Part shown: piece by piece, positions 4,064-58,541 of the stretch
Layout of the letters: each line of letters begins with the position of its first letter
Numbering within the stretch: position 1 is the first letter of the stretch
Assembly (NCBI RefSeq): GCF_910592395.1
Contig: NC_088309.1
Coordinates: 10,914,501 to 10,978,500 of the forward strand
Source: Lineus longissimus
Taxonomy: Eukaryota > Nemertea > Pilidiophora > Heteronemertea > Lineidae
DNA: 64,000 bases
Direction: 5' to 3'
Made by a program: the position numbers and the translations under genes
The notes under the pieces: model-generated
What the model was told of the DNA's origin: nothing
What the model saw: the letters and a program-made list of their open reading frames with translations, nothing else
The model's database searches: none

Positions 4064-4130
4064 ATGGGTTTAGAATCATTAGTCGCCGTACTGGCGACTG
4101 CAGCCGTCCTTCAATCCCTTTCATTGGCAG
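4064..4130 (+). CDS. Exon 1: signal peptide
   Basis: This encodes 22 residues plus the first base of the next codon. MGLES is followed by a hydrophobic core (LVAVLATAAVL) and a small-residue region (SLSLA) that would suit signal peptidase. The donor GTAAGT at 4131 leaves a phase-1 intron, matching the phase-1 acceptors that follow. I chose this start because of its strong context, its secretory signal and its phase compatibility with the downstream exons. Confidence 0.8.
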
Positions 4131-7100: not shown

Positions 7101-10100
7101 ATACACAATGTTAGGTATGTGGGCTACGCCTCACACGTTTACGGAGAGTGCTCCTATACATTTTCTGAGCACTTTTGTTTCAGTGATGGCGGGTGGTGGC
7201 TGCCCAAAGGGCTACACGATGCAGAAGGAACACGGACATGTAATATGTACCGAGACATTGAATTGTCCTACTGGATACGAAAAGGGAGAAGAAAATGGTG
7301 TACAAATCTGCACTCAAACAACAACGACGGGGGCCAAAGGCGTCGCGAAATGTCCAGCCGGGTACACGAGGACAGTGATGAATGGGGAAGTGGTTTGTGA
7401 GAGTACGGAAATCCAAAAGTGCCCTCCTGGGTACACGAAGACCACCCAAAACGGGAAACAGGTCTGCACATCAGATGTTACCGAGACAACTACCACGACC
7501 ACGGGTACGGCACTCTAATGCGAACCTCTTTTTCCTTCGAAGAGAAAAGTATCACAATTCTTACGTGGTGTCACCACCTCTAACCATCATGTACCGGTAC
7601 ACGCGTAGAAAATTGTTGTTGGATGATTTTGGGAGACTCCGGCAGAAACACATTTTGAGTGTCTTTGCGTGAGAAAAGTATCCAGTATATTCAAATGTGC
7701 TAAACCTAGGATTTTCATAGCAATCGTTACTAATCCTATCATACGTAAAATGGGAAGTTGTAAATTTTGAATGGTGTCCTATACAGGGGTTTTGTATCAG
7801 TAATGTGGATTCATCATAATCATTCTAAATTCAGAAACGGTGGAACCACATGAGAAAGCAACTACAGTCCAGGTACGAAATGTCGAACATGCGGTGAAAA
7901 CATCTAAGTGGAAGCATGCTCCGACCCTTATCAAGTATGCTGGCGTCAAGGAGACCGTGGTCGAGATAGGTAAGTGAGAAGTCCCCATTTGCCAGCCGCA
8001 GACATAGCGTTTGAGGATGTAGGGGCATAAAGGTGGTTATCAAGTGTCATCCATGAAAATTGTGTAGAGTAACATAGTGAATAATTATCTAGCCTTCAAT
8101 ATGGACAAATCGAATGTAGGTAAAATAGGTACAGGTAAATTAGGTACGGGTAAAACAGGTACGGTAAAATAGGTACAAGGTAAAATAGGTACGGGTAAAG
8201 TAGGTACAGGTAAATTAGGTATGGGTAAATTAGGTATGGGTAAAATTGATACTAGGAAAAATAGGTACTGGGTAAAATAGGTACACAAAAAAGAGAGACT
8301 AGGTAATATAAAGGTATGATCATATATTTTTATCATGATTCTTTTATTTCTGATTTTATCAATGCTTATTGAAAGAGTTTTCTTAATGATTACTTTTTAC
8401 CTTTTATGGGAAAAAAATCATGCACTTTAGATAAGTTTAAGTAAGTTCAATAGATTAATGCATTTTCATTTAACTGGGCCAAGTTTGTGCTGTAACTCAG
8501 AGGTCGTCATTTGTGTAAAAATAAATACATGCAGTCTCATTAAACTATATTTTGCCTTCGTTGTTACCACTTGTCGTTGTCACCAAAAAACTCTCAATTC
8601 AACATATAAAAAAAGCCAGGAACCCAACCCCAGACTTGAAACCTAAGAAGCCATACGATCATTAAAGAAGAACTTTTCCCCTCATGAGACATGGAAAATA
8701 TTGAGGCCATACCAAGCTGTTGGAAACCATACAAAAGCAGAAAAAAGCAGGTGCACTCTTGCTGTTCTACCAGACAAATCTAGTTTTCTAACAGCAATCA
8801 ATCATAGTTACTTAGCAACAGTTAATCATAATTAGTATTAGTTGGTAGTGATATCAGCACCAGCAAAAAACAACAATCACTAGAGAATTATTTCAATAAC
8901 AAGCATTAATTAGCACTCCAAGTAATTGATTAAAATTATCATAAAGTGAACCCTTTCAATAAGCTCAATTAGCATTGAAGAAGTGAAAAATTAAAAAAAT
9001 CTGGAAACTCAGATAAAATTTTGTGATTGACCCTATTTTACCTAGTTTCTCTTTTTTGTGTACCTATTTTACCCGGTACCTATTTTACCCGTACCTAATT
9101 TACTTGTACCTATTTTACCTGTACCTATTATACCGTACCTATTTTACCTGTACCTATTTTACCTGTACCTATTTTACCTGTACCTATTTTACTGGATACC
9201 GGACAAATCGCCTGTATAACGGATGTATAGCATACATGTACCTCCGTGCCAGTATGAAGCATTGAGCGTTGCTGTTCTAATGCATTTCACTTTAGCCTTA
9301 TTGTGCAAGGTTTTTGCCGAGGTTCACGAAATGGAAAAAAAAATTGTACTTGGCCACCTTCTAGCCATACTAAATTTCCAGCGGTATTACCACTTTTTTG
9401 CCTCACCTTCCGTTGTTTCTTTGAATGAATTCAGGAATTCTTCGAAAATGTTTTTTTTTACCTTTTTCCTTTTACACCATACTACTTGACAAGACGTAAA
9501 GCAACAAACCCACCCCGGCCTACCCAAACACTACCATTGAATTGAGAACAATTTCTGCATATTAAAAATTAAAACATATCCCTTCAGTCTAGCAAACAAA
9601 ACAACCCACCTGCTAGACTGAATAACTGATGATGATATATACAAAAATGTATCCTACAGACATTGTTCACATAGAATAAGGTAGAATGGGGTATTTGTAG
9701 ACCCGGTTATTTGAGGCCCCTGCGTTGTTTGATGCATGGGGATATCAATCAACATCATAGGCAGGGGCTACAATTAAACTGGGGCTACAAAAAAAACCCC
9801 AATCTATCTTACCAGATAGAGCGTGTAGCTTTTCAACATCCACCACCATTTTCCCCGATAGCTTTTAAATGGGCTTTTAACAATCAAAATAGATTTCATC
9901 AATTCATCGCAAGATTCCTATTGTTGAGGTATCCTCATCAGACGTACATGCAGAGATCGTGATGAAGAACTCTGGATACACACAGAGAAATACTCGCGTA
10001 ACTTTCGAGCCGAAGCCGAGGTATATAATTGACAAAGCCACTAACACTGTGTCGCCTCTGAACCAAAGGTGATGAGATCAAGCGAGGTCATAATTTTTAT

Positions 10101-13100
10101 CGCTCTTCGGGTATATTCGTTCATTTGTCAGAGACCGCATACAGCTAGGTTCAAATAAATGTACTTCCATTTTTCTGATCCCTGGGTTCCCCGTGTTATA
10201 TGAAAGTGCGGTTAGGTATTCCCATGCAGCTCTACAGCCTTAAGATCAGACTAAAGTGTCGACCATTGCTATCTTAGAGTCTAATGAGCCTCCTATCTAG
10301 CTCAAGCAGGTTTTGGCTTTGAAACAACCAATAAGCAAGGTACTTTTGCAACCGCTATCAGGGTGAAGAGAACAGCCAAATTTGTTCAAATATTCATCGA
10401 GTCTAGCAACGAATTACATGTCACTATTTTAATTCCAGCACATGACGTGGTGTTTCTTCTCGATTCTTCGGCCCAGACAGGAAAATCCAACTTCTACTTC
10501 TTCAAGAAACTCATCCTCGAGTTGACACATCAATTTGGCAACTTTGGAGGAAGCCACACCCACGTTGCCGTAATCCTTGTATCAGATAAAGCAAAGACGA
10601 AAGAAGTCATTCACTTGGACACCTATAACAAATTCAGCGATTTTAAACGTGCTGTGATGCGATTACCTTTCATTGGCGGAAGCGCCGACCTCGCGAACGC
10701 CATAAACTTAATGGGAAAGTCCTCATTTTCCAAGAAGTACCACGCAAGAGCGGAAGCCATTCGAACAGCCATTATTCTTGCCGGAAGCAAGATCAGTCGA
10801 CGTGATTTGCCACGGTTGGAGCAGGCTGTGGACTCGGCCAAAGGTGCCGAAATAGATGCCTACACAATCGGGGCAGCGGCAAGAAACAAGTACTATTCGA
10901 CTTTACTTGGACCAGGAAACGTGTTCAAGATCAAGACACCTCACATTGCGATGACCTTGGTCCCTAGGTTGCACTTCGCAAAAGAGTTTGGTAAGTTTCA
11001 TTCTGCATCTATAAATGCACTCTGAATTGCTGCTGTATAAACTATTGTAATTAAGATACACAATGTAATTAAAGGTACCAAACTAAACCATTGAAAGTCC
11101 GTAGGTTTAACATTTGAGGGTATCCGGTTGGCGAACCAGTGTGAGCTTCGGTACTAAGGAAAGGAGGAGCATGCTCACGACTGCGTTAGTAATCATAACA
11201 CTACGAGAATACGATAACACGGGAGTCGAGAAAAAACATCATGGCCAACGTGGAGTCATAGCATTTTCGATTACAGTCCAAAGGTTTAGCCCTGTATGCT
11301 GCATGTCATAATAGTTCGAAGTTTTAGTAACTACATTTTGATTGTTTTGCTGTCTTTAGAGGTGAGCTTCTCCGGCATGATTGACATGGTGTTTGTGGTC
11401 GATGCTGACTCCAAAGTCAGCCAGGGCCATCTCCTCATGCTGATGGTGTTTATCGAAGACATAATCTCCGGCCTTGGAGATGTGAACCCTGATCATATCA
11501 GAGTCGCACTGGCCTTCTACGGCGCCAAAGGCAATGCCAAAATAGACTTCGGGTTCAATAAGTACAGGAGCAACAACGCATTATCCAAGGCGTTGCACAG
11601 GGTTCAGAAGCTTGAAGGAAAAGGAGAATACCTTGGCGAGGCCCTTGCACTTGTCAGGAAGAAGGTTTGGCCCTACGCCCGTAAGAGTGCCAAGAAGATG
11701 CTTTTCGTGCTAACTGCAGAAAAGTCCAGTGATTACAAGGCGATCGTGAAGGAGCGGCACTGGCTGATGAAGCACCATGTCTTCATCGTTGCCGTTGGAG
11801 TTGGCGCCTACGCCTCAACAGATGAGATTAGGATGCTCGCTGGGCACACGGGTATCTTCTACAAACTGGCTGACTGGGAACGGCTGTACATTGATGCCTT
11901 TAATCTTGTTGCTAAGATCATGGGTAAGTAAATATTAATTAATGCCTACGTCTCGTATCTGTACATCATTCTATCGTATAAGTTTAGTTTAAATGGAGGG
12001 GGACGTGTTTGGAAAAGGAGGAGGCTGACATCGAAGTGGTTGTCGTTGTGGGCAACAGCTGGTACATTTCAGTGATTGGGCCACATCATTTAAAAAGGCA
12101 AAAACGAAAAAAACCGGCTCTTTTAAACAATTTTTTTACGAATGAATCAAATATAAAATGAAAAATCAATTATTCGAAAAGTTGAGAATTAAATGCTTTT
12201 CTGTTGGTAGGCATTTTATTCCTGTCATGTCGAGAATACAATGATCCGTCATAAAAAGCCATCCTACCCTCGATTATTCTTGTTTTTACACAGGCTGCCC
12301 TGTTGGCTTTCGAAGACATGGGACACATTGCAGATGTAAGCAAATTTCTACTTCACTGACGACGAAACTAGGTCACACAAATGGCATCATTTGCACATGA
12401 TAATTACTTTGAATACCAATTGGAAATATTTAGTGATACCGTGCATGTAATGCAGAATATGTTATGTTCCTGTTTCAATCAGTCCTCCACGAATACTCCC
12501 TAGTTATACTGATTATATTGTATTATTCAGGATTGAAAGGTGTACAAATATTTTTAATCACTAGATACATAATGATTTGACATGTAGTTATAAATCATAG
12601 ATGATTACCTATTCTGACAAATACATACATGAACATCTCATTAAAAAGACCTACAAATAAATGTATGACATGATAGATAGCCGCCAAAAACTGCTTTGCC
12701 AAATCTCATATTTTCCAAATTTAAGGCAAATTCTTTTTTTATATACAATGTGTTATCATTGTATAAACTTCTTAATGTTAGCCAAAGAGATGCTGCACCG
12801 ATAAAAATTAAAAAAAACATACTCTATGCTTCTTTTCAGTTGCTTATTGTCCGTACGGATTTAAGAAGAAGAAAATAGGCAATGCTTTGGCGCAGTGCCG
12901 GCAAATTGCTGGTGAGTGTACCATAACACAAAACTCTTCCAAAAATTGCGTTAAATTCTGTATACAGATCCCATAGTGAGCCTGTAAATGCATTCGCAAG
13001 GATGACCACGTGTCAGTGACTGTATGGTTTCCAGATTGTATAATGGGTGATAGGGTCAAGCGGACTTTGCGACATAACTCTCGACCGTCATCTAACGACA

Positions 13101-46100: not shown

Positions 46101-49100
46101 ATGAAAACAAAGAAAGTCCTTAAAATTTCACATCAGAGACATTTGATGAAAGTTATCAAGCACCTGAAGAGGAAACTACAGAAACACACACTGGTCCACC
46201 ATATTTCAAAGAAGGTTTCTCATTTGAAGGCAGTTGTCGGGCATCTTATAATGAAACAAAAGAAAGGGAAGCCAGTTACTCACCAAATCAAGATGATCAA
46301 ACGTCTCATAAGGAAGACTGTCCAGAGAAAGCTGAAGTTAAAACGAAAGATAATCCACAAAATTTCACATCGGGTAAATTTGATGAAGGTTATCAAACAG
46401 CTGAGGAAGAAACTGCACAAGAAAACGAAGCAAATCAAGAAATTAAGATTAGTCAGAAAAACAAAGAAAATAACACACGGAATAACACAGGTTCACAACA
46501 AGAAAAGAATGCAACCAATCTTGAAACAGGTGAACAAATGTAAGGCAGAACTGAGAAGGAAGGTGAGGTTGATAAAGACAATGAAAACAAAGAAAGTCCT
46601 CAAAGTTTCACATCAGAGACATCTGATGAAAGTTATCAAGCACCTGGAGAGGAAACTACAGAAACACACACTGGTCCACCATATTTCAAAGAAGGTTTCT
46701 CATTTGAAGGCAGTTGTCAGGCATCTTATAACGAAACAAAAGAAAGGGAAGCCAGTTACTCACAAAATCAAGACGATCAAACGTCTCATAAGGAAGACTG
46801 TCCAGAGAAAGCTGAAGTTAAAACGCAAGATAATTCACAAAATTTCACATCGGGTACATTTGATGAAGGTCATCGAACAGCAAAGGAAGAAACTGCACAA
46901 GAAAACGACGCAAATTAAGAAACTTAGGTTAGTCCTAAAGTCAAAGAAAATAACATCCAGAGTCACGAAGGTTCACCAGAAGAAAAGAATACAACCAATC
47001 TTGAAACAGGTGAACAAATGTAAGGCAGAACTGAGAAGGAAAGTGAGGTTGATAAAGACAATTAAAACAAAGAAAGTCCTTAAAGTTTCACATCGGACAC
47101 ACTTGATGAAAGTTATCAAGCACCTGAAGAGGAAAATACAGAAACACACACTGGTCCACCATATTTCAAAGAAGGTTTCTCATTTGAAGGCAGTTGTCAG
47201 GCATCTTATAACGAAACAAAAGAAAGGGAAGCCAGTTACTCTCCAAATCAAGAGGATCAAACGTCTCATAAGGAAGAATGTCCAGAGAAAACTGAAGTTA
47301 AAACGAAAGATAATCCACAAAATCTCACAGCGCGTACAATTGATGAAGGTCAACGAACAGCTGAGGAAAAAACTGCACAAGAAAACGAAGCAAATCGAGA
47401 AACTTAGATTAGTCAGAAAGACAAAGAAAATAACACACAGAATTACCAAGGTTCACGAGAAGAAAAGAATGCAACCAATCTTGAAACAGGTGAACAAATG
47501 TAAGGCAGAACTGAGAAGGAAAGTGAGGTTGATAAAGACAATTAAAACAAAGAAAGTCCTTAAAGTTTCACGTCAGAGACATTTGATGAAAGTTATCAAG
47601 CACCTGAAGAGGAAACTACAGAAGCACACAGTGGTCCACCATATTTCAAAGAAGGTTTCTCATTTGAAGGCAGTTGTCAAACGTCTCAGAAAGGAGCTAC
47701 AACTGGTTCGACTTTCAAGGAATCTTCAGGTCGCTGAGAAGAAGAGGAGACCTGTCATGAAAATAATCCAGAAGCTGAAGCGCCGCAGGTTAAAAATGCC
47801 ATTCAAGAGACTTGAACTCAGGAAGATTCAGCTGTTGAAGAAATTGAAAATTGCCAGGAAGGAGAAGAAACCGACTCATCAAATATTTAAAAAGCTGAAA
47901 TATACAAGGAGAAAAACGTCTGTGCTCCAGGACAAACGAGTTAAAGCATTACAAATTCTTAATCAAACAATGACCAAGGAAATTGAAGAATTGAAGGAGA
48001 AAATAAGGCTCTGTAAGACACAGAAATTGGTCCAGGTGAGGACTCCAACAAGTCGGATGACAAAGAAGCTCAAGCATCTTAAGATGAAGAGAATCCATGA
48101 ACGGCTTGTAAGGCAGAAACTGAAATTAAAGAGGATGCGTTTATTGAAAAAATTGAAACTGGCTAGGACGATGAAGAAACCCACAACATTGATCATCAGG
48201 AAGTTAAAGCATCTAAAGTTGAAGACAACACAAAGAACTATTCGAAGGAGACTGACTCTGAAGCAAAGGAAGACACTGACGACAAAGCTACTCAAGAAAC
48301 TTCGACTTGCTAAACGTGAAAAGAGACCAACCACTAAGATTGTTAGACAGCTTGAACAATTAGCAATGATGAAAGAGAAGAAACGCTACCTGTCTGTAAG
48401 ACAGAGGGTGGAAGGCAAAGAGTTACAAAAACCTGAGGAGAGAGAAGAACCTGAAGAAAGGGAAAACCATAGAGAGGTGGAAACCCCGGAAGAACTCACT
48501 CGGGGACAAATAGAAGGCAAAGAGCTGAAAAGGAAGCCAGTGAAACACAAGGAAGGACTTGAGTTCCAGAGGCCAATCGTGAGACAGGAGGCACTGGGGA
48601 TACGACGAAATCTGCTCTACATGACTCGATATAGAACCAGGAAAGAGGTTGTGGTTTACGAAATATCATACAGTTGCAATCATGGTTTCAGATTACGCAC
48701 CATAAGCAGTGATAAGGTGATATGTTATAAGGTTATTCAGAAGTGCCAAGAAGGGTACAAGTTGATTAAGAAGCCTGGGGAGAAAGTGCTTTGCCACAAG
48801 AAGATACCGAGATGTTCGAAGGAATATAAATTGCGAAGATTACAGGAAGGGGTAAGCACATGTTACAGAAAACACCCCTCTTGTCCGCCCGGCTATGAAT
48901 TCAAACATACACCTAGTATGACAGCAGATTGCTTGAAGACAATCAGAACGTGCAAGGGTGGTTTTATAAAGAGGAAAAGAGGAGAAGAGACCGTGTGTGT
49001 CAAGAAGACTCCGAGATGCAAGTCTGGTTACAAACTGATGAATAAGTTGATTGGTCAAGCCAGGTGTCATAGAAGGGTACCTAAATGCCCGCAGAAATAC

Positions 49101-52100
49101 GAGCTCAAGAAAACCAAAGAAAATACCTTTGAATGCATCCACGATGTTCCGATCTGTGACGATGGATTTACGTTAAAGAAACAAGGAGAGGTGCCAGTCT
49201 GCACAAAGAGAGTAACAAGTAAGTAAAAGCAATCAGTATAAACTTAGAGCCTCATGTGATTCATATAACTGACCAACATGTGCTCTCTTTTCATTTTAAT
49301 AACGTCATTAGGAGGCAAATTTCACTTTTGCTGCTAACTTTTTTTATACATGAAGTTCAGTGGCGTAAAGAATAGGCTTACCTGGGCTAGCATTTGGTGA
49401 CAAGTTATCAATCAATCCACAGCTAACCAGAATGCTGTCAATGCGATGGATATTCTTGCCCAAGGTAACTACCGTGATACAACAAACATTATAAAAGTGA
49501 AAAGCGAGTGTACAAGAACAGTATATTGATCAATACACCACAACATCAAAAATTGGTTGCAAAAATTCTGCTTCAGCAGCCATAGTTTTACCAGTCATGT
49601 CAACAAAGACAAAGCTGTAACGTCGTTGTATAACCCTGTTGAACTCAAACTTGCTTTGCAGAACTTTCCTGTGAAAAAGACTACGAACTGAAAAAGAAGG
49701 ACGGAAAGAAGCAGTGTGTAAAAGTAGAGTACAAATGTCTGCCAGGCTTCACTCTGAAACAGGAACCGGGCAAAGAAGTTATCTGTGAAAAGATGGTGAC
49801 AGGTTAGATCCGTTTAAAGTCTTTCTCTACATCCGTTTTACTATTCTGTGTATTCGAATTAGCGCTGAACACACTTGCAGATCACGAATTATCGGAATGA
49901 CCAATGTGAAAGTGATTTTGGATTCCCGAGGAGAAGAAGCTAGAGAGATAAATGTACGATGTAATATTAGACTTCTGGTCTCCATTGTTTATCAAACAAG
50001 GGAGAGAAACCATACCCAACACCTGAAGCATACGATAGTCTACACTATTCTCGATATTTTCAGCTAGTATTTTGTCTTGTGTTAGGGGTGGTTTATAAGT
50101 GCTCCTTTATATCTCTAAGCCAATCGGACCTCAAGCTCCAACGCTGCAATCTGCCGCAACAGCGCAGTCAGACACTCACTAATATACATTTTGGCATGAT
50201 TTTTCAGAAGAACCAGAAGAATCGCGACATGGACTTAAAATGCCAAAGAAACTGGTCCCAAAGACTGTAAATGAAACCATACCTGCAATCCCAAGAGAAC
50301 TCAACGAAGTACGAGAATATACTACCATTGTGAAGGAAATCATTAAGTTACCCAGGCACGTTGTCTTGAGAGAGAAGCCTCAGGAGACTGATGAATTCGT
50401 TCAGCCTTTGGAGAAGGAGGTGACAACGGAACCAAAGGAGGTTGTGCTGAAGCGTAGGCCTGTTGAAGCTGCTGATGAAGTGAATCCAGTGATTGAGGAC
50501 CGTACAGAGACACCTGAGGCAAAGGAGGTGACAGTTGGGCCGAACATTCTTCGGAAGCAAGTGGCCGGACGAACACGGATTGTGACGTCTGGACATTCTC
50601 CGCTGACGACTGTGAAGTCGATGGAAAGATTCAGAAAAGGTAACACTGTCGAAATTTCGGAGTCTTACAAATGTAACGTCGATGTTATACAAAGCGATCA
50701 TCGCCGACCATGTTTACTGCATGCCCCTTCGATCCCCTTAAACGTGTTTTATTAAAGGGATGTACAATGTATATAAAATGGTGTCAAGGCGACTCTATAA
50801 GGATGAATAAATGTGAACCACTTAGAAAAATTTGCTCAGTAAAATTGACATTGCCACCCATGTTTTTATCACAAATGCCTACTTTACAGTTGCGTTTTCT
50901 TGCAGTTGCTGAATGTGATGAAGGATATAGCGTCATCAAACAAGGAGACAGGAAAGAATGCGTCCGATGCCCTGAAGGCTTTAACATCCAGCACAAGAAA
51001 GGATACATCGCCTGCTTCAAAACTATTCTAAAGTGTATGGAAGGCTATAAACCAACATGGAAATATGGAAAAGGACTTTGCGTGATGAAAATTCCGGAAT
51101 GTTCTAAGGGCTTCGAACTGACACAAGAAGGAGGGTTAGCGTTGTGCGTGAAGAGGGCCCCTCCAGAGTGCAAAGACCCGAGGAACAGTGACCCAGCCTG
51201 CTCGAAGACTGTCCGCTCATGCCCCAGCGATTATCAACTCAGTGGAAAAGAAGACTTGATGGTGTGCGTTAAGAGGCGCCTCATGTGTTTGAAAGGATAT
51301 AAGATTAAAAAGAAGGCCTCAGGAGCCAACTGCGTGAAGAATATCCCCACTTGTGACCATGGATTTAGTTTGGTGAAGAGACAGGGTGTGCCAGTTTGCG
51401 CCAAGAACTCAGCGACTTGTTCGGACGGGTACGAACTACGAAACACTGGACCAAAACCGGAGTGTGCAAAGAAGGTCTACACGTGTGAAGAAGGCTGTGA
51501 CCTCAGAGAACGGGGAGGAAAGATGACATGCATAATGCGCAAGACAGGTGAGTGCATTGAATTAAACACAGTCTTGAAACTTGACGGCAATCTCACCCTC
51601 TCCTTGGATAGGCCTCGGTCTATTCAAAGCAGTTTTCGTTATCTTGAAACACGCCGCTCAAAAACCAGTCGAGCCTACACGAACGTCTATTTTACCAAGC
51701 ATTTTAGGCTACGTATCACGCACAATGCCTTTGTTATGCCTAAAGAGATGGACCAGAGAGTGGGTGTGGCATGGCGTGGTAGCCACTAGATTTGTAGTTC
51801 ATTGAGACATTGTGTAAGTTTTGCAAACCCTGTCATCCTTTTGCAGAAATGCAAGGCGAACCGAAAGAAGTCCCAGCTTCCGTGGTTGAAGTCACCATCC
51901 AACCCGAAGAAAAGATGTCTTTTGCCGACCCTCGTAGTATCGAAATTGACACCAGGCCTGTGATGATCGATGTGGACAGAGTTCCAGCGACTGTTAGGAC
52001 CATCTTTGTCAAGGACGAAATACGTAAACCAACGTTCATCGAAATAAAGGTTGAACCCTTGACCCACACCGTGACAATGCCAGTAGAAATAAATCCTGTG

Positions 52101-55100
52101 CGGAAACTAAAAACTGAGCCGAAATTGATCTTTGAAAGGATGGCGCCAAAGCTGTACGCTACAATGTATCCGTTCTTCCATCCAATAACAAAGACTGGAG
52201 CCCCTGCACCTCTCCATATCGTATTTGTAATTGATAACTCCAAGGATATCAGACGGAAAGAGTTTTGTTATATTCGTCGATTCCTTCACGGGTTGATCAC
52301 TACGCCACGTCTGGATTGGAAGATCACGAAAATAAGCGTTATTACAAACAGTAACACACCTGAAGTGGTATTCGGTCTGTCGCCGAGGAGACGCATCAGG
52401 CGCCTACTCTCGAGGCTGAGGCATGCTGGAGGTGTCGCAAACATGGCTGGAGCTTTAGAGGTAGCTTCCGAAATGTTTGATAACAATCCCAGTAAGACAG
52501 CTAGGAACGTGGCCATCGTCTTGAGTGCAAATTCCCCATCGTTGCGACAGGTAGGATGTCTATTATTTTTTGCATTTTGCTATTTTAGGGTCTGTCCAGC
52601 AAATGGTAACAACTTCGGAAAAAATTAAACAAGTAACTGAGAATACGTCTGAGAAACGTACGACCTGCCTTGCCAGCATTCAACAAGCCACGGGTATTTA
52701 ATATCTTCCCAGGCAACTGAATAATAATCTTTTGATGAACAGTACCGGTAGTAAATTAAAATGTTATCTTGAAATATGATCTCTATTCCTGCTAGCACTC
52801 TTCTTTGGCAAAGTACTCTTGGTCTTTGCTTAATCATTGAAAATCTATAGCCAAAGTTTTATAATGATTTCCCCTCCAACTCTAGGTATCAACAAGACTT
52901 TGGGACGACCTTATTGAGAAGGGTGTGGCCACTCTCACAATCTCCGCAGGCAAGGGTCCATATCCAACATTCTACCACCACTTAAAACGAAGCAAGTTGT
53001 CCAGTGCTATGCTTCTTCAATCCTTCAAAATACTACCATCATTCAATTGGCACTTGCACAGAAGTGACCAGTTGAGAGTGTGGAAGACTGTGAACGTATC
53101 GTCCAAGGACCACACGAAGCTCAGGTCATTCGTGACTGCGTTCACGTGCAGGCCGCGATACAGCTTAAGATACGGAAAAGGGAAAGGCCCAATTTGCTTC
53201 AGGAAGGTCAAAAAGCTTCTTAGATGTCCTAGAGGATACGAAATCACTAGTGGGAAGACTGCGAAGTGTCTAAGGAAGGTGAAAAAATGTCCTGGCGGGT
53301 TCAGTCTGCAGCTGAACGGAAAGCAGTCCCTCTGCGTAAAGAAAACTTCTTCTTGTTCGGAGAAGTACCAACTGGTACCACTGAAGGGAGGGGACTTAGT
53401 TTGTGTGGAACAGGTCCATAAGTGCGACCAGGGCTACATGCTTCGACTGACTGAAGACAAGAAGACGGAGTGTCTAAAGACGATTAACGCTTGTAACCCC
53501 GGTTTCAATTTGGAAGAGCGTCCTGGAAAGAAGCCTGTCTGCGTCAAGCAGTTAACAAGTAAGAACTGACATTTTTATTGAGATCGACTTTGTAAATGCC
53601 ATGCACAAAAGTGACATAACCGAGTTTAAAATAGGTCTATGTTGTCGAAAGGCTTTTAGATATCTGATTCTTTGAAATTAGAATCACCATAAGCATTTTA
53701 TAATCAGTCAGTAGTGGCTATCGCTCGTCATGTTCACGAAGCAAGCAGTAGTACTCCATGGTCCATGACCACATATATATATGTGATGAAGTTGTCAAGG
53801 ACCAATAATAGAACTGCATAGATTGGGTGTGTTATGAGAGCTACTATTCAACAGTTAAATAGAATCGTTGATACGACCATCTTGATACCGTATTCTAGCG
53901 TCAGTCGATCGATGTTCCGGCGTTTATTTGCTAACCCCGTGTATCTTCTTCCAGTTCGCAAATGTGATTTGGGTTATAAGCTGAAACAGCATGATGAAGT
54001 CTTTGTATGCATCAGGGTAACAACTGAGCATTCCAGGCCGGTAGACTCGCAAGGTTTGATCAAAGAAGTACTACCAGAAACGAAGGGCGTCACTATTGTA
54101 GAAAAGCACATAAAACGGCCAGCGGACGAGAGAGAATTCGCACGAGGGCCGAGAGATGCAGTGGAAATCATCAAACCGAAAGTAAATATGGAAGTTAAGG
54201 AGCCACGAGAGGTGACGATGACGAAGGAGCCAGTAGAGGTGAAGAAGAGAGACAAGATTGCAAGCAAAGACCACCGTAGTCTGGAGCGTGTCGTTGAGGA
54301 AACAGCTGGAGTGACCGTCATTAGGAGACCAGTCGTGAGTAGGACAAAGGTGTTCCGGGACGAAGGCCCGCCGATTGAAGTAGTGTCTTTAGGCAAACGG
54401 ATGCAAGTCCGGCCAAAGACAGGGGAGATCAGTCAGTGTCCGGATGGATACGAAGTCAAGTCTAACCAGAACGGGAAAACGGTGAAATGTGTACGACAGT
54501 GTACAAAGCCTACTTGTTATAGGACGGTCCATGAATGCCATGATGGCTACACTTTTGATACAGCGAGAGGTATCTGCATACGAAGTAAGCTGAAGTGCAC
54601 TAATGGGTACAAGTTGAAGACCAATGGTGATAAAACAGTATGCATGAAGGAGGTCCCAAACTGTGACGATGGGTACGTGCTCGACAAGAGTCAAGAGAAA
54701 CCAACCTGTATCAAGAACATGCCTAGCTACTGCAGGAATGATTACGAACTCCAAGTGAGGGGATCAGAGAAGCAATGTATCAAGAAGGTCTACTTGTGTG
54801 GCGATGGCTTCAAACTGAAAACCAAGGAAGGAAAGAAGATCTGCTCCATGCAAAGGCAGGGTAAGCATTGTTTTCATTACGATTTTACACTGACCTTGTG
54901 ACCTTTAGATATCGTCACTTCCTAAACCGAATGGGGACTTTAACCGAAAAGAAGAAGTCGGCATTTCATTAAAGATCTTCAATTAACGAATGGGACAACT
55001 TCTCCTGTAGTGAACATGTCAAATCATTCATGAACAGACTGTGACGATACCGAGTTTAGATAATAAGTTTTGGAGGACGTCTTCATTCGACACAAGGACA

Positions 55101-56364
55101 GTCGACAGAAATGGGAGGAGCAGTCGTAAACCGGTTGCTTCATCAGCACCAGCAGTAACGTTGGCAATAAGTCCTAACGCAGATAAAATTTACTAAAATG
55201 AGATACAATGTATCGCTTACTTGAGCTAACGCTGGCGTAGACTCTAACGCCGATGCCCAATGGAGCAACTGGGTCTTCAATACAAAAATTGCCATTTTGC
55301 ATTGCAGTGCTGACGTGTGGCAACGGCTATGAACTCAAAAGGGAGACCGGAGAGAAACCACATTGCGCGAAGGCGTCTAGATCAGGTAATTTGGTCGGGT
55401 CGACTCAATTTAAACGAGAACGTTGGTCATGCAGAATGCAGGTAGTGCATGAGTGTGATTTCGTGCGTCTCTGAAAAAATACCACTGCAGAATCTAATTT
55501 TTGCGTTAGCGAGATCATCCTCGGGGCTTTCTTTCAATACGTTTTCCCTAAAATCTGAATGAAATACTAAAGTGTTTGGTATACTGCTGCTAAAGGATGT
55601 TTCTCTTTTGTTCTCACAGATACAATCAAGTATATGAATGTCTGTCTCCTCAATTCAACAGAAACTCGTCTAGAAAGGTACCATTACATTGAGTTCTTTT
55701 GTTATAACCTCAACATTGTGACATCCACATTTACCTTTCAGGAAAGGGAGAGGCAGTGATAGAACCGACACTTGAAACCGTTGAAAAGTACAAGGAGCCT
55801 TCAGTCACAGAGGTAACGATTCAACCAGAGGAGAGAACATTGCAAACCACGCCACGTAACATAGACGTTGAAACAGTCCCATTCCAGATCATATTGGACA
55901 GCGCACCGGCAAAAGTGGAAAAGGTCCGCACCGATGTGGAGACAGTGCAGCCGAGAGAAGTGGCTGTCGACATGAAACTTATCAACGAAACTGCCGAAGA
56001 GGGCGTCGAAATGAAACATGGCAATGCAGAGGAGACCAAGTTCAATACGCCTTCTGCCCTTACGCATCTGTTCGGAGAGATACCCATGGACCGACAGCGC
56101 AACCGTATTTTGGACATGTCTCTGCAAGATTTCCTGAAGAAATTCGGTGAGGGCAAGAAGCAGAAAGTTGAGTTTGCGGGCGGACAGGGCCCATACCATT
56201 GGAGTCCTTTAGAACTGCATCGGCCGCGTTCTGAAGGCTATGCAGGACACGAGGAGACGCACCATACCGGGCCTTGGTATCTATTTTCGACAGCTGCCGA
56301 TTATGAGCAGGACGTCATCAATAAAGATGCGAAGAAACTCTACGATGAAGTTATAAATCCGTAA
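4064..56364 (+). CDS. Giant secreted VWA / CPxGY-repeat / polybasic-array protein gene (29 coding exons, full span)
   Basis: Span of a single gene model. Exon lengths sum to 36,882 nt, a whole number of codons ending in TAA, for about 12,293 residues. Order along the protein: signal peptide (1-22), four CPxGY modules (to about 129), unrecognised segment (to 174), VWA1 (175-358), VWA2 (359-546), mini-exon CPxGY modules (547-854), giant-exon segment (855-10,894) with the basic array at about 2,425-10,385, then CPxGY modules, acidic linkers and VWA3, to a unique C-terminus at 12,293. Every junction joins phase-compatible consensus GT/AG sites. All introns are phase 1 except the one inside VWA3 (phase 0). 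The signal peptide and paired cysteines imply secretion. I do not recognise the family and give no gene symbol. The model is my reading without transcript data; small exons could be missed, above all in introns 1 and 3. Confidence 0.8.
4466..4504 (+). repeat. Dispersed repeat end shared with the 9,679 element
   Basis: About 38 bases here (starting GGTAGAATGGGGTA) match both termini of the short inverted-repeat element at 9679-9813. Only one end is recognisable, so this may be a truncated or different family member. Confidence 0.55.
4753..5133. mobile_element. MITE-like inverted-repeat element with poly-C/poly-G arms
   Basis: The ends are inverted copies: ATGCAAGTATCAATTCG at 4753 and its reverse complement ending at 5133. 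Each arm continues as TCTTGTAC, a run of about 14 Cs (poly-G on the right arm), then CTCCTCAAGGGTA. The element is about 380 bp and non-coding, as expected of a non-autonomous foldback or MITE. I could not confirm a target-site duplication. Confidence 0.75.
5157..5573. repeat. Dispersed repeat, copy A
   Basis: About 415 bases recur as a direct copy at 6122-6569. Both copies start with GAGACAATACCACCAAT and end in a shared CAATGGTGGTCTT stretch, and they differ by scattered substitutions and small indels. No protein is recognised, so this is probably a non-autonomous repeat family. Confidence 0.8.
6122..6569. repeat. Dispersed repeat, copy B
   Basis: Direct, diverged copy of 5157-5573, offset by about 965 bases. 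It carries an extra insertion of about 35 bases near 6155-6190 relative to copy A. Confidence 0.8.
7184..7504 (+). CDS. Exon 2: four CPxGY two-cysteine modules and Thr-rich tail
   Basis: 107 codons, phase 1 in and out (acceptor AG 7182-7183, donor GTACGG at 7505). It encodes MAGGG followed by four modules of about 23 residues: CPKGY, CPTGY, CPAGY and CPPGY, each with a second cysteine 12-15 residues on (VIC, QIC, VVC, QVC). A TTTTT-type threonine tract at the end suggests an O-glycosylated linker. An upstream ATG at 7108 opens the same frame, but the acceptor and the signal exon make splicing into 7184 the better model. Confidence 0.75.
7835..7969 (+). CDS. Exon 3: unrecognised 45-residue segment
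   Basis: 45 codons, phase 1 in and out (TTCAG acceptor, GTAAGT donor). The peptide begins ETVEPHEKATTVQV and ends KETVVEI. It has no cysteine. It loosely resembles the 'E-V-T-I-Q-P-E-E' segments of exons 25 and 29, so it may be a divergent copy of that domain. Confidence 0.65.
8093..9205. mobile_element. Foldback element with about 15-bp minisatellite arms
   Basis: The left arm (about 8115-8302) is a tandem array of about 15-bp units of the form GGTACGGGTAAAATA. The right arm (about 9029-9200) is the same minisatellite in inverted orientation. The inner edges of both arms share an inverted copy of TACACAAAAAAGAGA...CTAGG. The roughly 0.73-kb centre is AT-rich and has no convincing coding frame. 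The arrangement fits a non-autonomous foldback-type transposon. Confidence 0.75.
9679..9813. mobile_element. Short MITE-like inverted-repeat element
   Basis: About 135 bp with inverted termini: GGTAGAATGGGGTATTTGTAG on the left, and GGGGCTACAA...CCCC-AATCTATCTTACC on the right. A matching single end lies at 4466, which suggests a family present in several copies. Confidence 0.65.
10439..10990 (+). CDS. Exon 4: VWA domain 1
   Basis: 184 codons, phase 1 in and out (TTCCAG acceptor, GTAAGT donor). It is a complete von Willebrand factor A-type fold: the first strand DVVFLLDSSAQ, an amphipathic helix, HVAVILVSD, and the later strands RTAIILAGS and EIDAYTIG. The metal site looks degraded. The DxSxS motif reads D-S-S-A-Q, and the usual TDG is replaced by AGS. 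VWA domains usually mediate adhesion or matrix assembly; with a poor metal site, a scaffolding role is more likely. The whole domain lies in one exon, the common layout for matrix-protein VWA modules. Confidence 0.8.
11360..11923 (+). CDS. Exon 5: VWA domain 2
   Basis: 188 codons, phase 1 in and out (TGTCTTTAG acceptor, GTAAGT donor). It begins with a VWA first strand (IDMVFVVDADSKVS), followed by VALAFYG, FVLTAEKSS and VFIVAVGVGA strands in the usual order. The MIDAS signature is degenerate: DxSxS is D-A-D-S-K and TDG is TAE. It is diverged from VWA1 but lies in an equivalent exon, so the two probably arose by exon duplication. Confidence 0.8.
12294..12335 (+). CDS. Exon 6: mini-exon, CPVGF module (short type)
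   Basis: 42 nt, phase 1 in and out, acceptor TTTACACAG, donor GTAAGC. It encodes GCPVGFRRHGTHCR, one short two-cysteine module. Confidence 0.7.
12840..12911 (+). CDS. Exon 7: mini-exon, CPYGF module (long type)
   Basis: 72 nt, phase 1 in and out, acceptor CTTTTCAG, donor GTGAGT. It encodes AYCPYGF, a Lys-rich stretch and a second Cys (AQCRQ). Confidence 0.7.
13162..13203 (+). CDS. Exon 8: mini-exon, CPPGY module (short type)
   Basis: 42 nt, phase 1 in and out, acceptor TTTTTCAG, donor GTAAGT. It encodes CPPGYKNIKKLCV. Confidence 0.75.
13837..13905 (+). CDS. Exon 9: mini-exon, CPRGY module (long type)
   Basis: 69 nt, phase 1 in and out, acceptor TTCTAG, donor GTAAGT. It encodes SKCPRGYHVK and a second Cys (PVCYTN). 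Confidence 0.75.
14035..14076 (+). CDS. Exon 10: mini-exon, CPIGY module (short type)
   Basis: 42 nt, phase 1 in and out, acceptor CTTTGCAG, donor GTAAGT. It encodes CPIGYRNFAGKCV. Confidence 0.75.
14553..14618 (+). CDS. Exon 11: mini-exon, CPVGY module (long type)
   Basis: 66 nt, phase 1 in and out, acceptor CTTTACAG, donor GTAAGT. It encodes QLCPVGYKLSLY and a second Cys (KRCVFS). Confidence 0.75.
14925..14966 (+). CDS. Exon 12: mini-exon, CPSGY module (short type)
   Basis: 42 nt, phase 1 in and out, acceptor CATTTCAG, donor GTGAGT. It encodes CPSGYNKVGFTCV. Confidence 0.75.
15259..15324 (+). CDS. Exon 13: mini-exon, CPVGY module (long type)
   Basis: 66 nt, phase 1 in and out, acceptor TGACCAG (weak pyrimidine tract), donor GTGAGT. 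It encodes SKCPVGYKSHLQ and a second Cys (RVCLFY). The acceptor is the weakest of the set, but phase and module fit exactly. Confidence 0.65.
15683..15721 (+). CDS. Exon 14: mini-exon, CPQDY module (short type)
   Basis: 39 nt, phase 1 in and out, acceptor CCTTTCAG, donor GTACGT. It encodes CPQDYIQRGPVC. The usual Gly is replaced by Asp, and it is one codon shorter than the other short-type exons. Confidence 0.7.
16464..16526 (+). CDS. Exon 15: mini-exon, CAPGF module (long type)
   Basis: 63 nt, phase 1 in and out, acceptor TCTTTCAG, donor GTAAGT. It encodes VKCAPGFKKVL and a second Cys (AYCTS). Confidence 0.75.
16900..16941 (+). CDS. Exon 16: mini-exon, CLPGF module (short type)
   Basis: 42 nt, phase 1 in and out, acceptor GTTTTCAG, donor GTAGGT. 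It encodes CLPGFNWRKGKCK. Confidence 0.7.
17306..17377 (+). CDS. Exon 17: mini-exon, CPKGY module (long type)
   Basis: 72 nt, phase 1 in and out, acceptor GTTTACAG, donor GTAAGT. It encodes GTCPKGYTRKR, a basic stretch and a second Cys (IICLFK). Confidence 0.75.
17616..17669 (+). CDS. Exon 18: mini-exon, CPKGY module
   Basis: 54 nt, phase 1 in and out, acceptor ATTTGCAG, donor GTAAGT. It encodes CPKGYQLVLMHGVKRCI, intermediate in length between the short and long types. Confidence 0.75.
18027..18104 (+). CDS. Exon 19: mini-exon, CPYGY module
   Basis: 78 nt, phase 1 in and out, acceptor CTCCACAG, donor GTAAGA. It encodes PKCPYGYEMVRV and a second Cys in a basic context (RCRKRIS). Confidence 0.75.
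18310..18378 (-). repeat. tRNA-derived SINE-like head in intron 19
   Basis: On the - strand, an A-box-like TGGACCAGTGG (18367-18377) and a B-box-like GGTTCAAACCC (18322-18332) are about 45 bases apart, as in a tRNA. The arms do not pair well enough for a functional tRNA. It fits a tRNA-derived SINE promoter. Confidence 0.55.
18439..18573 (+). CDS. Exon 20: two CxxGF modules before the giant exon
   Basis: 135 nt, phase 1 in and out, acceptor CATTGCAG, donor GTACGG. It encodes SKCAKGFQLRQRKGKAPDC, then CPMGFVLYKQG and a final Cys. The two modules are fused without an intron between them, unlike exons 6-19. Confidence 0.75.
18836..18856 (+). promoter_or_regulatory. Recursive-splice-like AG|GTAAGT site in intron 20
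   Basis: A pyrimidine-rich tract ends in ACAG and is followed at once by GTAAGT (junction after 18849), about 250 bases before the acceptor of the giant exon. This is the zero-length-exon pattern of recursive splicing. It may be chance, because the intron is only 525 bases long. Confidence 0.3.
19099..23807 (+). other. Giant exon part 1: degenerate basic helical repeats
   Basis: About 1,570 residues with no long exact repeats. Two themes recur. One is KENKRL followed by R or K at coiled-coil spacing (near 20,080, 20,625, 21,615 and 23,180). The other is a module of form LLKKLK-A-(x3)-KKPT-(x2)-II-KLK (near 20,920, 22,370 and 22,485). The second theme resembles parts of the array unit, so this looks like the older, diverged form of the array. 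Confidence 0.65.
19099..49218 (+). CDS. Exon 21: 30,120-nt giant exon, polybasic repeat array and CPxGY modules
   Basis: One open frame runs from a TTTTGTAG acceptor (AG 19097-19098) to a GTAAGT donor at 49219, phase 1 in and out, about 10,040 residues. Parts: (1) 19,099-23,807, Lys/Arg-rich with heptad-like and KENKRL-type segments, predicted largely helical; (2) 23,808-47,678, the 480-bp tandem array; (3) 47,679-48,400, a basic tail with three LLKKLKLA-type repeats; (4) about 48,400-48,540, a short Glu-rich segment; (5) 48,660-49,210, eight CPxGY-type two-cysteine modules. Acidic residues are very scarce before part 4. An intact frame over 10,000 codons argues strongly for a real selected product. 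Location and partners are unknown; with the signal exon it would be secreted. By composition alone it could be mistaken for a nuclear coiled-coil protein. Confidence 0.9.
24935..25171 (+). repeat. Shortened 237-bp array unit 1
   Basis: The interval between equivalent landmarks is 237 rather than 480 bp. The junction near 25,022 joins HKISHP to IHLIEVIKHLKRK, removing 81 residues in frame. Confidence 0.9.
27092..27328 (+). repeat. Shortened 237-bp array unit 2
   Basis: Same junction as unit 1 (IHLIEVI form), exactly 2,157 bp downstream of it, as part of a longer duplicated block. Confidence 0.9.
30209..30445 (+). repeat. Shortened 237-bp array unit 3
   Basis: Same deletion junction (near 30,300), here with the IHLIKVI variant. 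Confidence 0.9.
40046..40282 (+). repeat. Shortened 237-bp array unit 4
   Basis: Same deletion junction (near 40,135), IHLIKVI variant, followed by KHLKRKQQ. Confidence 0.9.
45083..45319 (+). repeat. Shortened 237-bp array unit 5
   Basis: Same deletion junction (near 45,172), IHLIKVI variant. Confidence 0.9.
49219..49661 (+). other. Intron 21
   Basis: 443 bases between GTAAGT and a TTGCTTTGCAG acceptor. Nothing else is recognised. Confidence 0.6.
49662..49802 (+). CDS. Exon 22: two CPxGY-type modules
   Basis: 47 codons, phase 1 in and out. The donor GTTAGA is weaker than most. It encodes modules CEKDY...QC and CLPGF...IC, ending EKMVTG, and continues the module series that closes the giant exon. 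Confidence 0.75.
49803..50207 (+). other. Intron 22
   Basis: 405 bases of non-coding sequence with nothing else recognised. Confidence 0.55.
50208..50639 (+). CDS. Exon 23: charged Pro/Glu/Val-rich linker
   Basis: 144 codons, phase 1 in and out (TTTTTCAG acceptor, GTAACA donor). There are no cysteines. The sequence is rich in Glu, Pro, Val and Lys, with repeated xVTTEPKEVVL-like and EAKEVTV-like phrases. It recalls the extended charged segments of exons 25, 27 and 29, and no known domain is recognised. It contrasts with the nearly Glu-free giant array. Confidence 0.7.
50906..51547 (+). CDS. Exon 24: run of about nine CPxGY-type modules
   Basis: 214 codons, phase 1 in and out (TTCTTGCAG acceptor, GTGAGT donor). 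Modules in order: CDEGY, CPEGF, CMEGY, CSKGF, an atypical CKDPRNSDPAC insert, CPSDY, CLKGY, CDHGF, CSDGY and CEEGC. Each module is about 23 residues with a second Cys before a Val/Met-Lys stretch. The regular pairs suggest small disulphide-linked hairpins in an extracellular protein. I do not recognise an existing domain name with confidence. Confidence 0.8.
51847..52550 (+). CDS. Exon 25: EVTIQPEE domain and first part of VWA domain 3
   Basis: Enters in phase 1 and leaves in phase 0 (acceptor TTTTGCAG, donor GTAGGA). The first 100 or so residues carry a conserved but unnamed segment (VVEVTIQPEE, then PRSIEID, then DRVPATV) that recurs in exon 29. A VWA domain follows: HIVFVIDNSKD, ISVITNS, a helix, GGVANMAGAL and NVAIVLSAN. 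Its metal site is degenerate, with D-N-S-K-D for DxSxS, Val for the MIDAS Thr, and SAN for TDG. The domain finishes in exon 26. Confidence 0.75.
52551..52885 (+). other. Intron 25 (phase 0, interrupts VWA3)
   Basis: 335 bases. It is the only non-phase-1 intron in the model and splits the third VWA domain after its TDG-equivalent strand. Confidence 0.65.
52886..53558 (+). CDS. Exon 26: end of VWA domain 3 and about six CPxGY-type modules
   Basis: Enters in phase 0 and leaves in phase 1 (acceptor AACTCTAG, donor GTAAGA). The first 80 residues finish the VWA fold (VSTRLWDDLIEKGVATLTIS). Modules follow: CRPRY, CPRGY, CPGGF, CSEKY, CDQGY and CNPGF, each with its second Cys. The exon ends VKQLTS, like the ends of exons 21 and 22, which suggests repeated use of one linker at module-block ends. 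Confidence 0.75.
53559..53954 (+). other. Intron 26
   Basis: 396 bases, with a short TA-rich stretch near 53,773. Nothing else is recognised. Confidence 0.55.
53955..54860 (+). CDS. Exon 27: module, charged linker, then six CPxGY-type modules
   Basis: 302 codons, phase 1 in and out (TTCTTCCAG acceptor, GTAAGC donor). It starts with one module (CDLGY...VC). About 145 residues of charged Pro/Glu/Val-rich sequence follow, with repeated VKEPREVTMTKEPVEV-like phrases. It ends with modules CPDGY, CHDGY, CTNGY, CDDGY, CRNDY and CGDGF. A short CTKPTC insert breaks the spacing between the first two of these. Confidence 0.75.
54861..55307 (+). other. Intron 27
   Basis: 447 bases of non-coding sequence with nothing else recognised. 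Confidence 0.55.
55308..55385 (+). CDS. Exon 28: single CGNGY module
   Basis: 26 codons, phase 1 in and out (CATTGCAG acceptor, GTAATT donor). It encodes LTCGNGYELKRE and a second Cys (PHCAKAS). It is a lone mini-exon like exons 6-19, although neighbouring blocks of the same module have lost their introns. Confidence 0.7.
55386..55741 (+). other. Intron 28
   Basis: 356 bases. A further acceptor/donor pair (55620-55677) would give a 58-nt exon that breaks the frame, so I leave it out. Confidence 0.55.
55742..56364 (+). CDS. Exon 29: EVTIQPEE domain and unique C-terminus (terminal coding exon)
   Basis: Acceptor ACCTTTCAG, phase 1 in, with TAA at 56362-56364. It encodes 206 residues plus the stop. 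The first 90 residues repeat the exon 25 domain (VTEVTIQPEE, PRNIDVE, LDSAPAKV), and an acidic stretch follows. The last 110 residues are unique, with a possible helix (DMSLQDFLKKFGEG) and then an aromatic, His-rich segment (GPYHWSPLELHRPRSEGYAG) ending DEVINP. It has no transmembrane segment or GPI-like tail, which supports a soluble secreted product. Confidence 0.75.
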
Positions 56365-56556: not shown

Positions 56557-58064
56557 CTGGAGTGAAGTTATTCCTGGAAAAGTCATGAGCGATTTTGCGA
56601 GGCTCTTGACAGATTGATCAGTTAATTCGTCTTTAGGGACAGAAGAACAACGTCACAGACAATTAGGTATTCGGGATTGATACAAGTACGGTGAATTCGG
56701 CTGTGTCTCGTATAAAATTCCAGGCCAGAAACGACATTAGAATCTTTACAACCATTTCCGAACAACAGTCCTTTGAATCAGTAAAGTTGGCCACATTCTG
56801 CGTGCAATTTCGTCTCTTCGGGAGAATGCGCTCTAGCTTTCGAACATTTTTTTTCTGATGCCGTACGGGGCAGAGCCGAATAAACCGTATTTTAAAATCG
56901 AACGATGTCTTTTCTAATACATCTGATGTCCAATCTCTATGTCAGTATGTTCAAGTTACATTCATTACCAGACATGATGATGGATAAAGGAAAAAGTAGA
57001 TGGACCAAATGAGAAAAACACTTTTTGGAGATCTTTGTAAATATCAGCATTCGTGACGTGTGGATCTTCTGATTTTTTTTCAGTCATTACTAATATAACT
57101 AAAATTATAACCAGTACTTATGGGATTAGGGTGTTTTAAAAAAAATATTATGGAACTGTTTGGTTGAGGATAGTGAGTATTGTGATAAATATTATTGTGA
57201 TAAAACAGATCAGTCAATGTTCATAAGGGATTGTACACAAAAAAGCTAAATTTCAGAAAACATCTAAAATTTATCAGACCCCTCCCATTCTCCGAATAAA
57301 GAGTTAAGGACACATATCACGGACGTCCATGCACATAGTCGACTGTAGGTTAATCACATTGTAAAAAGAATCAAAAATTTTCAATTTGCTTCATCTTCAC
57401 CCTCAGCTCCGCTCCCTTTAATTTCAGACTTTTTAAAAAGTTTAACGTCAAGGTGGGTCTTTTTGCACACGATCCCTAACGAAGGACTACTGTTATTTGT
57501 GAATATTGCTAAGGTTTGGGTGAAATGCTTCGTTTTGCTAAGGAAGTTAACTTCCTTCTTTCGGTTTTGGTTGTGGGCTTTTTATCACATAGACGACTTG
57601 ATGACTGTAAAATGGGCGAGGTATTTTAGATTTCTCTGTATGCCGCTATGTTATTGGTGAATTCAAATTGTAAAATTTACCAGTCGTGGGCTTTGAAGCA
57701 CTGACCAATTAAACTAAATATGAAAACAACACTCCTGTTCTTTTTTCGTCATTTGCTAGCTTACACACGAGGTCATCCTGACAAGCAGGGCTTCCACCCC
57801 ATTATACCGTCACCCTCATAAAATTATTGCCCAAGTTGTATGTTCTACTTTTGAGAAAAATGGAAAAAACTTATTCATTTCCGACCTATTTCAAATTTAT
57901 TTTGCAGCTAACTAAGAATAATATGTTTAAACTTGACAATGAACATGTAATTTATTTTATTTGAGCCGGTGCAGAAGTAGAAAATGTCTTCCTGGAAAAA
58001 GTAACCTGCCCTATTGTCTTCTGACGGGTTCTATCCCATATGCCACAGCGCAGACTAGAATCCG
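56557..58064. other. Intergenic region, nothing recognised
   Basis: AT-rich non-coding sequence beyond the giant gene. Short open frames occur, but none shows a domain or splice support. Confidence 0.45.
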
Positions 58065-58247
58065 TTGCGCCCCGGACGTTCCATCCGAAGAAATTTCAAA
58101 CTACCAACGATGTGCGGCAAATGGTCAAGAAAAATCATTCTAAAATACCTTGGTACCGTAAAGTCAACTTTTAAATGGAAAATGCATAAGCCCCGTTCTG
58201 AGAGTGGAGTGTTTTGGACACGCAACCAAGATGCTCTACCAAAGTTC

Positions 58248-58541
58248 CCTCGGGTTGCACTAAAATGTGGAAACCATGCACACGTCACCCATTTTCATGA
58301 ATTTCCAAATCCAGTTGAACGAGAGAGGAGGAAGCTGTGGATTCGGAAGTGCAAACGTTTGGAGTGTTGGAAGCCTGGGCCTTCGGCCAAACATTGCAAT
58401 GATCACTTTATCGATACGGATTATCACATGAAGCCGGATATCTGCATCCAACTGAATATTAAATGTCACTTGTTAAAAACAGTTGTTCCATCTGTATTCG
58501 ATTTGACCAACCCCACTTACATGCGACAGCCTCCAAAGTAA
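58248..58541 (+). pseudogene. THAP-domain fragment (degenerate, transposon-associated)
   Basis: In one frame ending at TAA (58541), the segment from ALKCGN to the stop has THAP landmarks. These are a central FP, a W followed by IRKC (58330-58355), and the C-x2-H-F end as HCNDHF (about 58,393-58,410). The first zinc cysteine of the C2CH set is missing, so zinc binding is doubtful. Upstream codons in the frame look non-coding. Pieces of the same segment recur inverted at 62395-62596 and 63764-63965, so it is probably a relic of a P-element/THAP9-like or other THAP-bearing element rather than a host gene. Confidence 0.6.

Follow-up and report, generated by a model that had tools for sequence, protein, structure and literature searches.

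A 28-exon gene of the nemertean Lineus longissimus predicted to encode a secreted megadalton protein that joins VWA domains, two-cysteine modules and a giant polycationic array

The window considered here is a stretch of 64,000 nucleotides of the Lineus longissimus genome (NCBI RefSeq assembly GCF_910592395.1, contig NC_088309.1, positions 10,914,501 to 10,978,500 of the forward strand). Its plus strand carries one spliced gene model of 36,747 nt, free of internal stops (Table 1), whose product would have a mass of 1.46 MDa, a net charge of +3,484 and a pI of 11.7. To build this model, open frames, cysteine modules and VWA domains were sought first, and splice sites were then placed as AG/GT with simple donor and acceptor score matrices. 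An earlier note on this DNA, made from its letters, had chained 29 exons and 12,293 codons in frame behind a signal peptide; the single in-frame chain and the signal-peptide exon stand, while the present model differs by one exon and 45 codons. The same note described a secreted product of megadalton size that joins VWA domains, two-cysteine modules and a Lys/Arg-rich array of about 7,900 residues, and this description agrees with the mass, the signal-peptide exon, the spliced chain, the Pfam matches to VWA, the module counts and the subunits of the array. The gene architecture and the secretion of the product are well supported.

Other features are also found in the window. For instance, there is a C2H2 zinc-finger open frame at 324-1235 (Pfam zf-C2H2 above cut-off), a tRNA-Leu with anticodon AAG on the minus strand at 1766-1849 and, downstream of the giant gene, a THAP-domain open frame at 58059-58538 (34.1 bits, cut-off 23.9). 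Additionally, intron 2 holds two minisatellites with 15-bp units that are near reverse complements of each other (8118-8285 and 9032-9192), and a tandem duplication, whose period is about 1,369 bp and which contains 86-bp and 21-bp repeats, occupies 61489-64000.

Table 1. Features of the giant gene, in positions of the window
Feature	Positions	Strand	Remarks
Whole coding span, 28 exons, 12,248 aa	4064..56364	+	stop TAA at 56,362-56,364
Exon 1, start codon and signal-peptide-like segment, phase-1 donor	4064..4130	+	candidate unique in the window
Exon 2, four CPxGY modules and Thr-rich end	7184..7504	+	
Exon 3, VWA1, degenerate MIDAS	10439..10990	+	PF00092 E 3.4e-20; PDB COL6A3 E 1.5e-32
Exon 4, VWA2, degenerate MIDAS	11360..11923	+	PF00092 E 3e-21; PDB COL6A3 E 1.1e-38
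Exons 5-19, 15 small phase 1-1 exons with 16 two-cysteine modules	12294..18573	+	
Exon 20, 30,120 nt	19099..49218	+	
Non-repetitive cationic stretch 5' of the array, K+R 37.8%	19101..23720	+	
Polycationic array, 52 A (79 aa) and 47 B (81 aa) subunits	23721..47780	+	approximate limits
Two-cysteine modules, end of exon 20 and exon 21	48675..49802	+	intron between
Exon 22, charged linker	50208..50639	+	no Pfam family above cut-off
Exon 23, nine two-cysteine modules in a run	50906..51547	+	
Exons 24-25, linker, VWA3 split by a phase-0 intron, modules	51847..53558	+	PF00092 E 1.9e-10
Exons 26-27, linker and modules	53955..55385	+	
Exon 28, linker and C-terminal region, stop	55742..56364	+	AATAAA follows at 56,551

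The splice sites form a regular series, as 26 of the 27 introns are in phase 1 and the lone exception, in phase 0, lies inside VWA3. Of 53 ranked sites, 48 have the top score in their own listing, the others being the acceptors 10,439 (second by score), 16,464 and 16,900 and the donors 14,618 and 15,721; acceptor 52,886 is the top-scoring one in one of two listings. At 16,464 and 16,900 the phase is identical to that of the better-scoring alternative, whereas acceptor 10,439 and the two donors were chosen for phase or module fit and, consequently, a small share of the phase regularity is the analyst's choice. Exon 1 is the sole place on either strand of the window where an ATG start codon coincides with a hydrophobic core and with a phase-1 donor of high score; its signal peptide is predicted by a hydropathy criterion and this donor scan.

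Pfam was searched with 15 pieces, two of them outside the gene and the others lying apart from exons 1, 5-19, 21 and 27 and from most of the array. Three of these pieces matched PF00092 with 73.4, 76.8 and 41.7 bits, above the cut-off of 23.8. The metal site of VWA domains, called MIDAS, is formed by a DxSxS motif, a T and a D, and it is degenerate in all three window domains when read by eye. As many VWAs do not have a canonical MIDAS, the window domains keep their place in the family, but metal-mediated binding by this copy is improbable. VWA genes as such are common in the L. longissimus genome, since a VWA2 query gave 17 matches there, 15 of them outside the window and the paralogous locus described below. 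Eight VWA matches are clustered on the minus strand of C6 (19,184,219-19,193,022 and 19,553,318-19,554,906), which perhaps represents a VWA gene cluster.

The two-cysteine modules are about 22 residues long, follow the pattern C-x2-G-[YF]-x-L-...-G-...-C and mostly have two cysteines each. This pattern was matched 58 times on the plus strand of the window (in some cases outside the gene) and five times on the minus strand, while the spliced protein contains 54 modules, compared with a mean of 1.6 and at most 5 when its 2,678 non-array residues were shuffled 200 times. Five of the six module pieces scanned touch the complement Clr-like EGF family (cEGF, PF12662) with 13.5-22.9 bits, all below the cut-off of 26.6, and the sixth has no match; a profile of six module stretches had no PDB match up to E = 1. 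Structure prediction gives beta hairpins for the modules (mean pLDDT 70.7, pTM 0.42), and we infer that they are either related to the final hairpin of an EGF domain or imitate it.

Exon 20 is open for about 10,040 codons and consists, in this order, of about 1,500 non-repetitive cationic residues (in which no lag identity surpassed the highest of 30 shuffles), the A/B array, a cationic and mixed-charge stretch and a group of modules. The 99 subunits of the array alternate save for five extra A copies, and neighbouring unit starts (47 in number) are, in all 46 cases, 160 or 239 residues apart, in frame. An array collapsed during assembly is unlikely, because the longest exact repeat in the exon, of 813 nt, is far below the 12-20 kb sheared fragments that were sequenced according to the accessible part of the report on the assembly project (PMC8593623). 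In an array slice of 8,020 residues, K+R amount to 35.9%, His to 8.8% and D+E to 1.7%, for a net charge of +2,742, and the array has 47 cysteines; the giant frame as a whole contains 6.3% T, 2.7% S, 1.5% P, 1.1% Gly and 0.4% Tyr. The array is under purifying selection: over 1,035 of the 1,081 unit pairs (after removal of 46 pairs with less than 60% identity, and with units that hold an extra A copy kept in their original alignment) the median dN/dS is 0.32 and the pooled pN/pS 0.43.

With regard to its structure, the array has a hydrophobic moment of 0.365 at 100 degrees, compared with 0.259 in one shuffle, and falls below the shuffle at 160-180 degrees, which points to a helical rather than a strand-like pattern. 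Runs of five K/R residues are absent, compared with 49 in shuffles, so that the charge is spaced out. AlphaFold2 predicted helices of 19-62 residues from 15 of the 47 unit starts, the best model having a mean pLDDT of 76.8 and a pTM of 0.45; all alignment rows were copies of this one array, and the mean pLDDT of the five models ranged from 49.4 to 76.8. With moderate confidence, the subunits may thus be described as predicted cationic amphipathic helices. An assignment to known coiled coils or repeats was discarded, as the PDB gave two weak matches (E 0.03 and 0.043) and no Pfam family was above cut-off for the array. Selection on charge within the array is visible but modest. Among 476 changes from the consensus in 42 of the 47 units, the replacement of one hydrophobic residue by another is the commonest (103); a positive residue is lost to a neutral or acidic one in 114 (to an acidic one in 26) and to His in two more, and is gained in 68. 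Losses therefore exceed gains, and positive positions account for only a little less than their share of the changes.

A second locus of the same genome (391,118,348 bases in 30 contigs) was found with two module queries, each giving 6 listed matches at E up to 1e-3, all of them in the window or at 18.29-18.33 Mb of C2, the contig that also carries the window. The paralogue spans C2:18,293,222-18,332,859, about 7.3 Mb from the window, and is described here from separate exons and pieces. Its 5′ part comprises a signal-peptide exon (the sole candidate in 10.4 kb of plus strand, with a laxer donor cut-off), a module exon whose CPPGS repeats are rich in Thr/Ser, a VWA, a module exon and a second VWA. 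These are followed by the giant frame, modules, further VWA pieces and module exons, and a VWA3, and the C-terminal exon holds further basic repeats and a Gly/Arg-rich end. Twelve of the 15 exons picked are in phase 1-1, which the score favoured; by contrast, the score did not favour the phase-0 intron that interrupts VWA3 at a matching place, after SANSPSLRQ in the window and SANTPSFRN in the paralogue. The two VWA3 domains are 41% identical over 178 residues (E 1.2e-34), and the modules at the end of the giant exons 37.5% over 200 (E 3.9e-29). VWA1 is 34-36% identical to two paralogue VWAs; both leading VWAs of the paralogue are VWA1-like, and the piece there that is most like VWA2 lies 3′ of the giant frame, so the number and order of VWAs differ between the two genes. 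Two pieces of the paralogue, at 18,316,518 and 18,317,533, retain the canonical MIDAS residues when read by eye. On these sequence comparisons, the paralogue appears to have the same overall plan as the window gene, although not at every position.

The giant cationic frame of the paralogue has 4,709 codons (K 34.7%, R 6.0%), and its array contains no Cys and includes three near-identical copies of 1,217 residues with a dN/dS of 0.48 between them; within one such period no lag identity exceeded the best of 30 shuffles. A subunit HMM of the window array scored -1007 on the paralogue array, compared with -1320 to -1422 on 20 shuffles, and the value is strongly negative after bias correction. Sequence homology between the arrays was, consequently, not demonstrated once composition was discounted. 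The paralogue array nevertheless has a moment at 100 degrees of 0.438 (0.268 in the shuffle) and 14 runs of five K/R residues (53 in shuffles). What the two arrays have in common is thus composition and helical pattern, not detectable sequence, and the common composition, 100-degree moment and depletion of K/R runs are read as selection on charge and helical pattern.

It may be proposed that the product is a secreted structural polyelectrolyte that binds polyanions in mucus or matrix, a role on which we are evenly divided. In this model, the hairpin modules and the VWAs, with their degenerate metal sites, would hold the molecule in place or join it into multimers. The array, which carries about +2,700 net charges, would condense with polyanions, glycans or others, of the epidermal mucus, the proboscis secretion or the connective matrix. 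The Cys, Lys, Gln and His residues that recur, among them the 47 Cys of the array, could provide sites for cross-links or metals, and the property held in the arrays would be charge and helical patterning more than exact sequence. The chain of exons and its phases, the unique signal exon, the constrained in-frame array and the plan of the paralogue count for this model, as do the composition, charge, 100-degree moment and scarcity of K/R runs in both arrays, the predicted helices, the VWA3 likeness with its phase-0 intron, the restriction of the listed module matches to the two loci and the nemertean secretions described below; the modest selection on charge, the dN/dS of 0.48 in the paralogue, the pTM values of 0.42-0.45, the spread in pLDDT of the array models and the different number and order of VWAs count against it. 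The interpretation of the earlier note is supported in part, as regards one secreted product that joins VWA domains, modules and array and resembles no described family; the polycation might, as the note suggested, pair with polyanions in a matrix, cuticle, mucus or adhesive.

The accessible text of PMC6410017 describes nemertean mucus and glue-like proboscis secretions, which would be a natural place for such a protein, and calls this mucus 'not well chemically explored'. In the accessible parts of two secretion-proteome papers on other nemerteans (PMC9132205, PMC12846013) the terms 'VWA' and 'lysine' do not occur; according to the former, the upregulated genes include von Willebrand factor and several mucins, and the latter states that the majority of mucus sequences had no known match. 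Tryptic proteomics would, we infer, see little of a K/R-rich array.

Among the alternatives, the protein could belong to the internal connective matrix of the body wall, as a partner of collagen or proteoglycans, rather than to a surface secretion. Collagen VI alpha-3 as the nearest PDB match of VWA1 and VWA2 agrees with this option, and matrix polyanions would suit the array; on the other side, the paralogue has a module exon that is Thr/Ser-rich like secreted mucus proteins, a weak hint, and we consider the option unlikely. It is improbable, too, that the array is a polyprotein store, cut after secretion into antimicrobial or cytolytic cationic helical peptides, for example in a defensive mucus. 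Although the predicted helices are of the appropriate kind, such peptides occur in nemertean mucus (PMC12846013 and PMC6410017, as far as their accessible text goes) and dibasic [KR]R sites are close to the shuffled number (250 and 267), there are no acidic spacers between subunits, the array has no Pfam family above cut-off and the flanking VWAs and modules suit a structural molecule. Furin-type R-x-[KR]-R sites number 2 in the array compared with 25 in shuffles, a count in which the copies are not independent; in the unique parts there is no clear lack of them (5 and 0, with 7.0 and 2.3 in shuffles).

A division into two genes, with 4,064-18,573 and 19,099-56,364 on separate transcripts, is very doubtful. 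Introns 1 and 2, of about 3 kb each, could accommodate such a view, as the remaining 25 span 129-742 nt, but the junction 18,573/19,099 is in phase 1, exon 1 is the only signal-peptide candidate and the paralogue keeps modules and VWAs on either side of its giant frame. Separate transcripts and a nuclear product had been named in the earlier note as findings that would overturn its reading; the former is countered by the overall plan of the paralogue and the latter by the signal-peptide exon, the cysteine modules and the VWAs. A chance open frame, a non-coding satellite or a nuclear basic protein is, despite the extreme basic composition and the tandem repeats, scarcely credible, and the nuclear protein and the chance frame were rejected in view of the signal-peptide exon, the modules and VWAs, the in-frame spacing, a dN/dS below 1 and the depletion of five-residue K/R runs.

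Taking the secreted polyelectrolyte further, we tentatively suggest, with somewhat more doubt than belief, an ancient two-gene nemertean family of megadalton secreted polycations that gel with polyanions and whose very long arrays of cationic amphipathic helices are free in sequence but held in charge and helix. Such a protein would correspond to chitosan or polylysine in the form of a single chain encoded by a 30-kb exon, although the protein itself must be in evidence before one can speak of a new class. Should it be produced and secreted intact, this single polypeptide would be exceptional in size and very high in charge, and a concrete candidate for the build of nemertean mucus, proboscis secretion or extensible body matrix. 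The two-gene family additionally offers a test of which array properties are under selection, charge and helix pattern or exact sequence, and a protein-based polycation material might be suggested.

The view that no described family has this architecture is in line with our searches. Among 5.8 billion proteins, where shared 5-residue words were required and lengths were limited, so that distant or differently annotated relatives can escape, the N-terminal query of 809 residues gave 7,824 candidates and a single match, through VWA, to a protein of Owenia. Residues 9,001-9,989 of the giant exon (915 candidates) gave no match at E up to 1e-3, and neither did residues 440-1,400 of the 1,614-residue C-terminal part (4,133 candidates) give any; the PDB and Pfam add no relative for the array or modules. 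The listed titles and abstract openings of literature on giant exons, on VWA or lysine-rich polycations, on nemertean mucus and on VWA in Nemertea describe no such protein. Judged from sequence, the window gene would encode a giant modular extracellular protein, of a known kind, with an array that had no relative in these searches.

Comparison with known systems helps to delimit this kind. Collagen VI alpha-3 supplies the best PDB matches of VWA1 and VWA2, but the window protein adds the polycationic array and the two-cysteine modules, and no collagen family appears in the Pfam-scanned pieces; the giant frame, with 1.1% Gly, also speaks against a Gly-X-Y triple helix. The match in Owenia fusiformis, the VWA/EGF protein P0001, has 1,405 residues and is similar in the VWA region (E 1.7e-32, 23% identity, 52% of the N-terminal query). 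The modules, with their two cysteines and sub-cut-off scores, do not establish membership in EGF or cEGF. Proximal thread matrix protein 1 of the mussel byssus, likewise a secreted lophotrochozoan protein, has similarity in VWA (E 1e-7 and 1.9e-13), but its PDB chain has 454 residues compared with 12,248 here, and we know of no array in it. The shell matrix proteins Pif and BMSP also combine VWA with a low-complexity region rich in basic residues; their chitin-binding domain was not found beside VWA in the 15 scanned pieces. According to the accessible part of PMC11291548, VWA/chitin-binding proteins are present in nemerteans, and the Pif region is Asp-rich (24-26% in Pinctada), unlike the window array with its few acidic residues. 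Gel-forming mucins, which have VWD domains and PTS-rich regions, are not matched either, with no VWD in the scanned pieces and the T, S and P contents given above for the giant frame. DOPA adhesives are Tyr-rich, which the giant frame is not. Finally, marine polybasic and mussel adhesive proteins are, like the predicted product, secreted and lysine-rich, but the window protein is far larger and its giant frame poor in Tyr.
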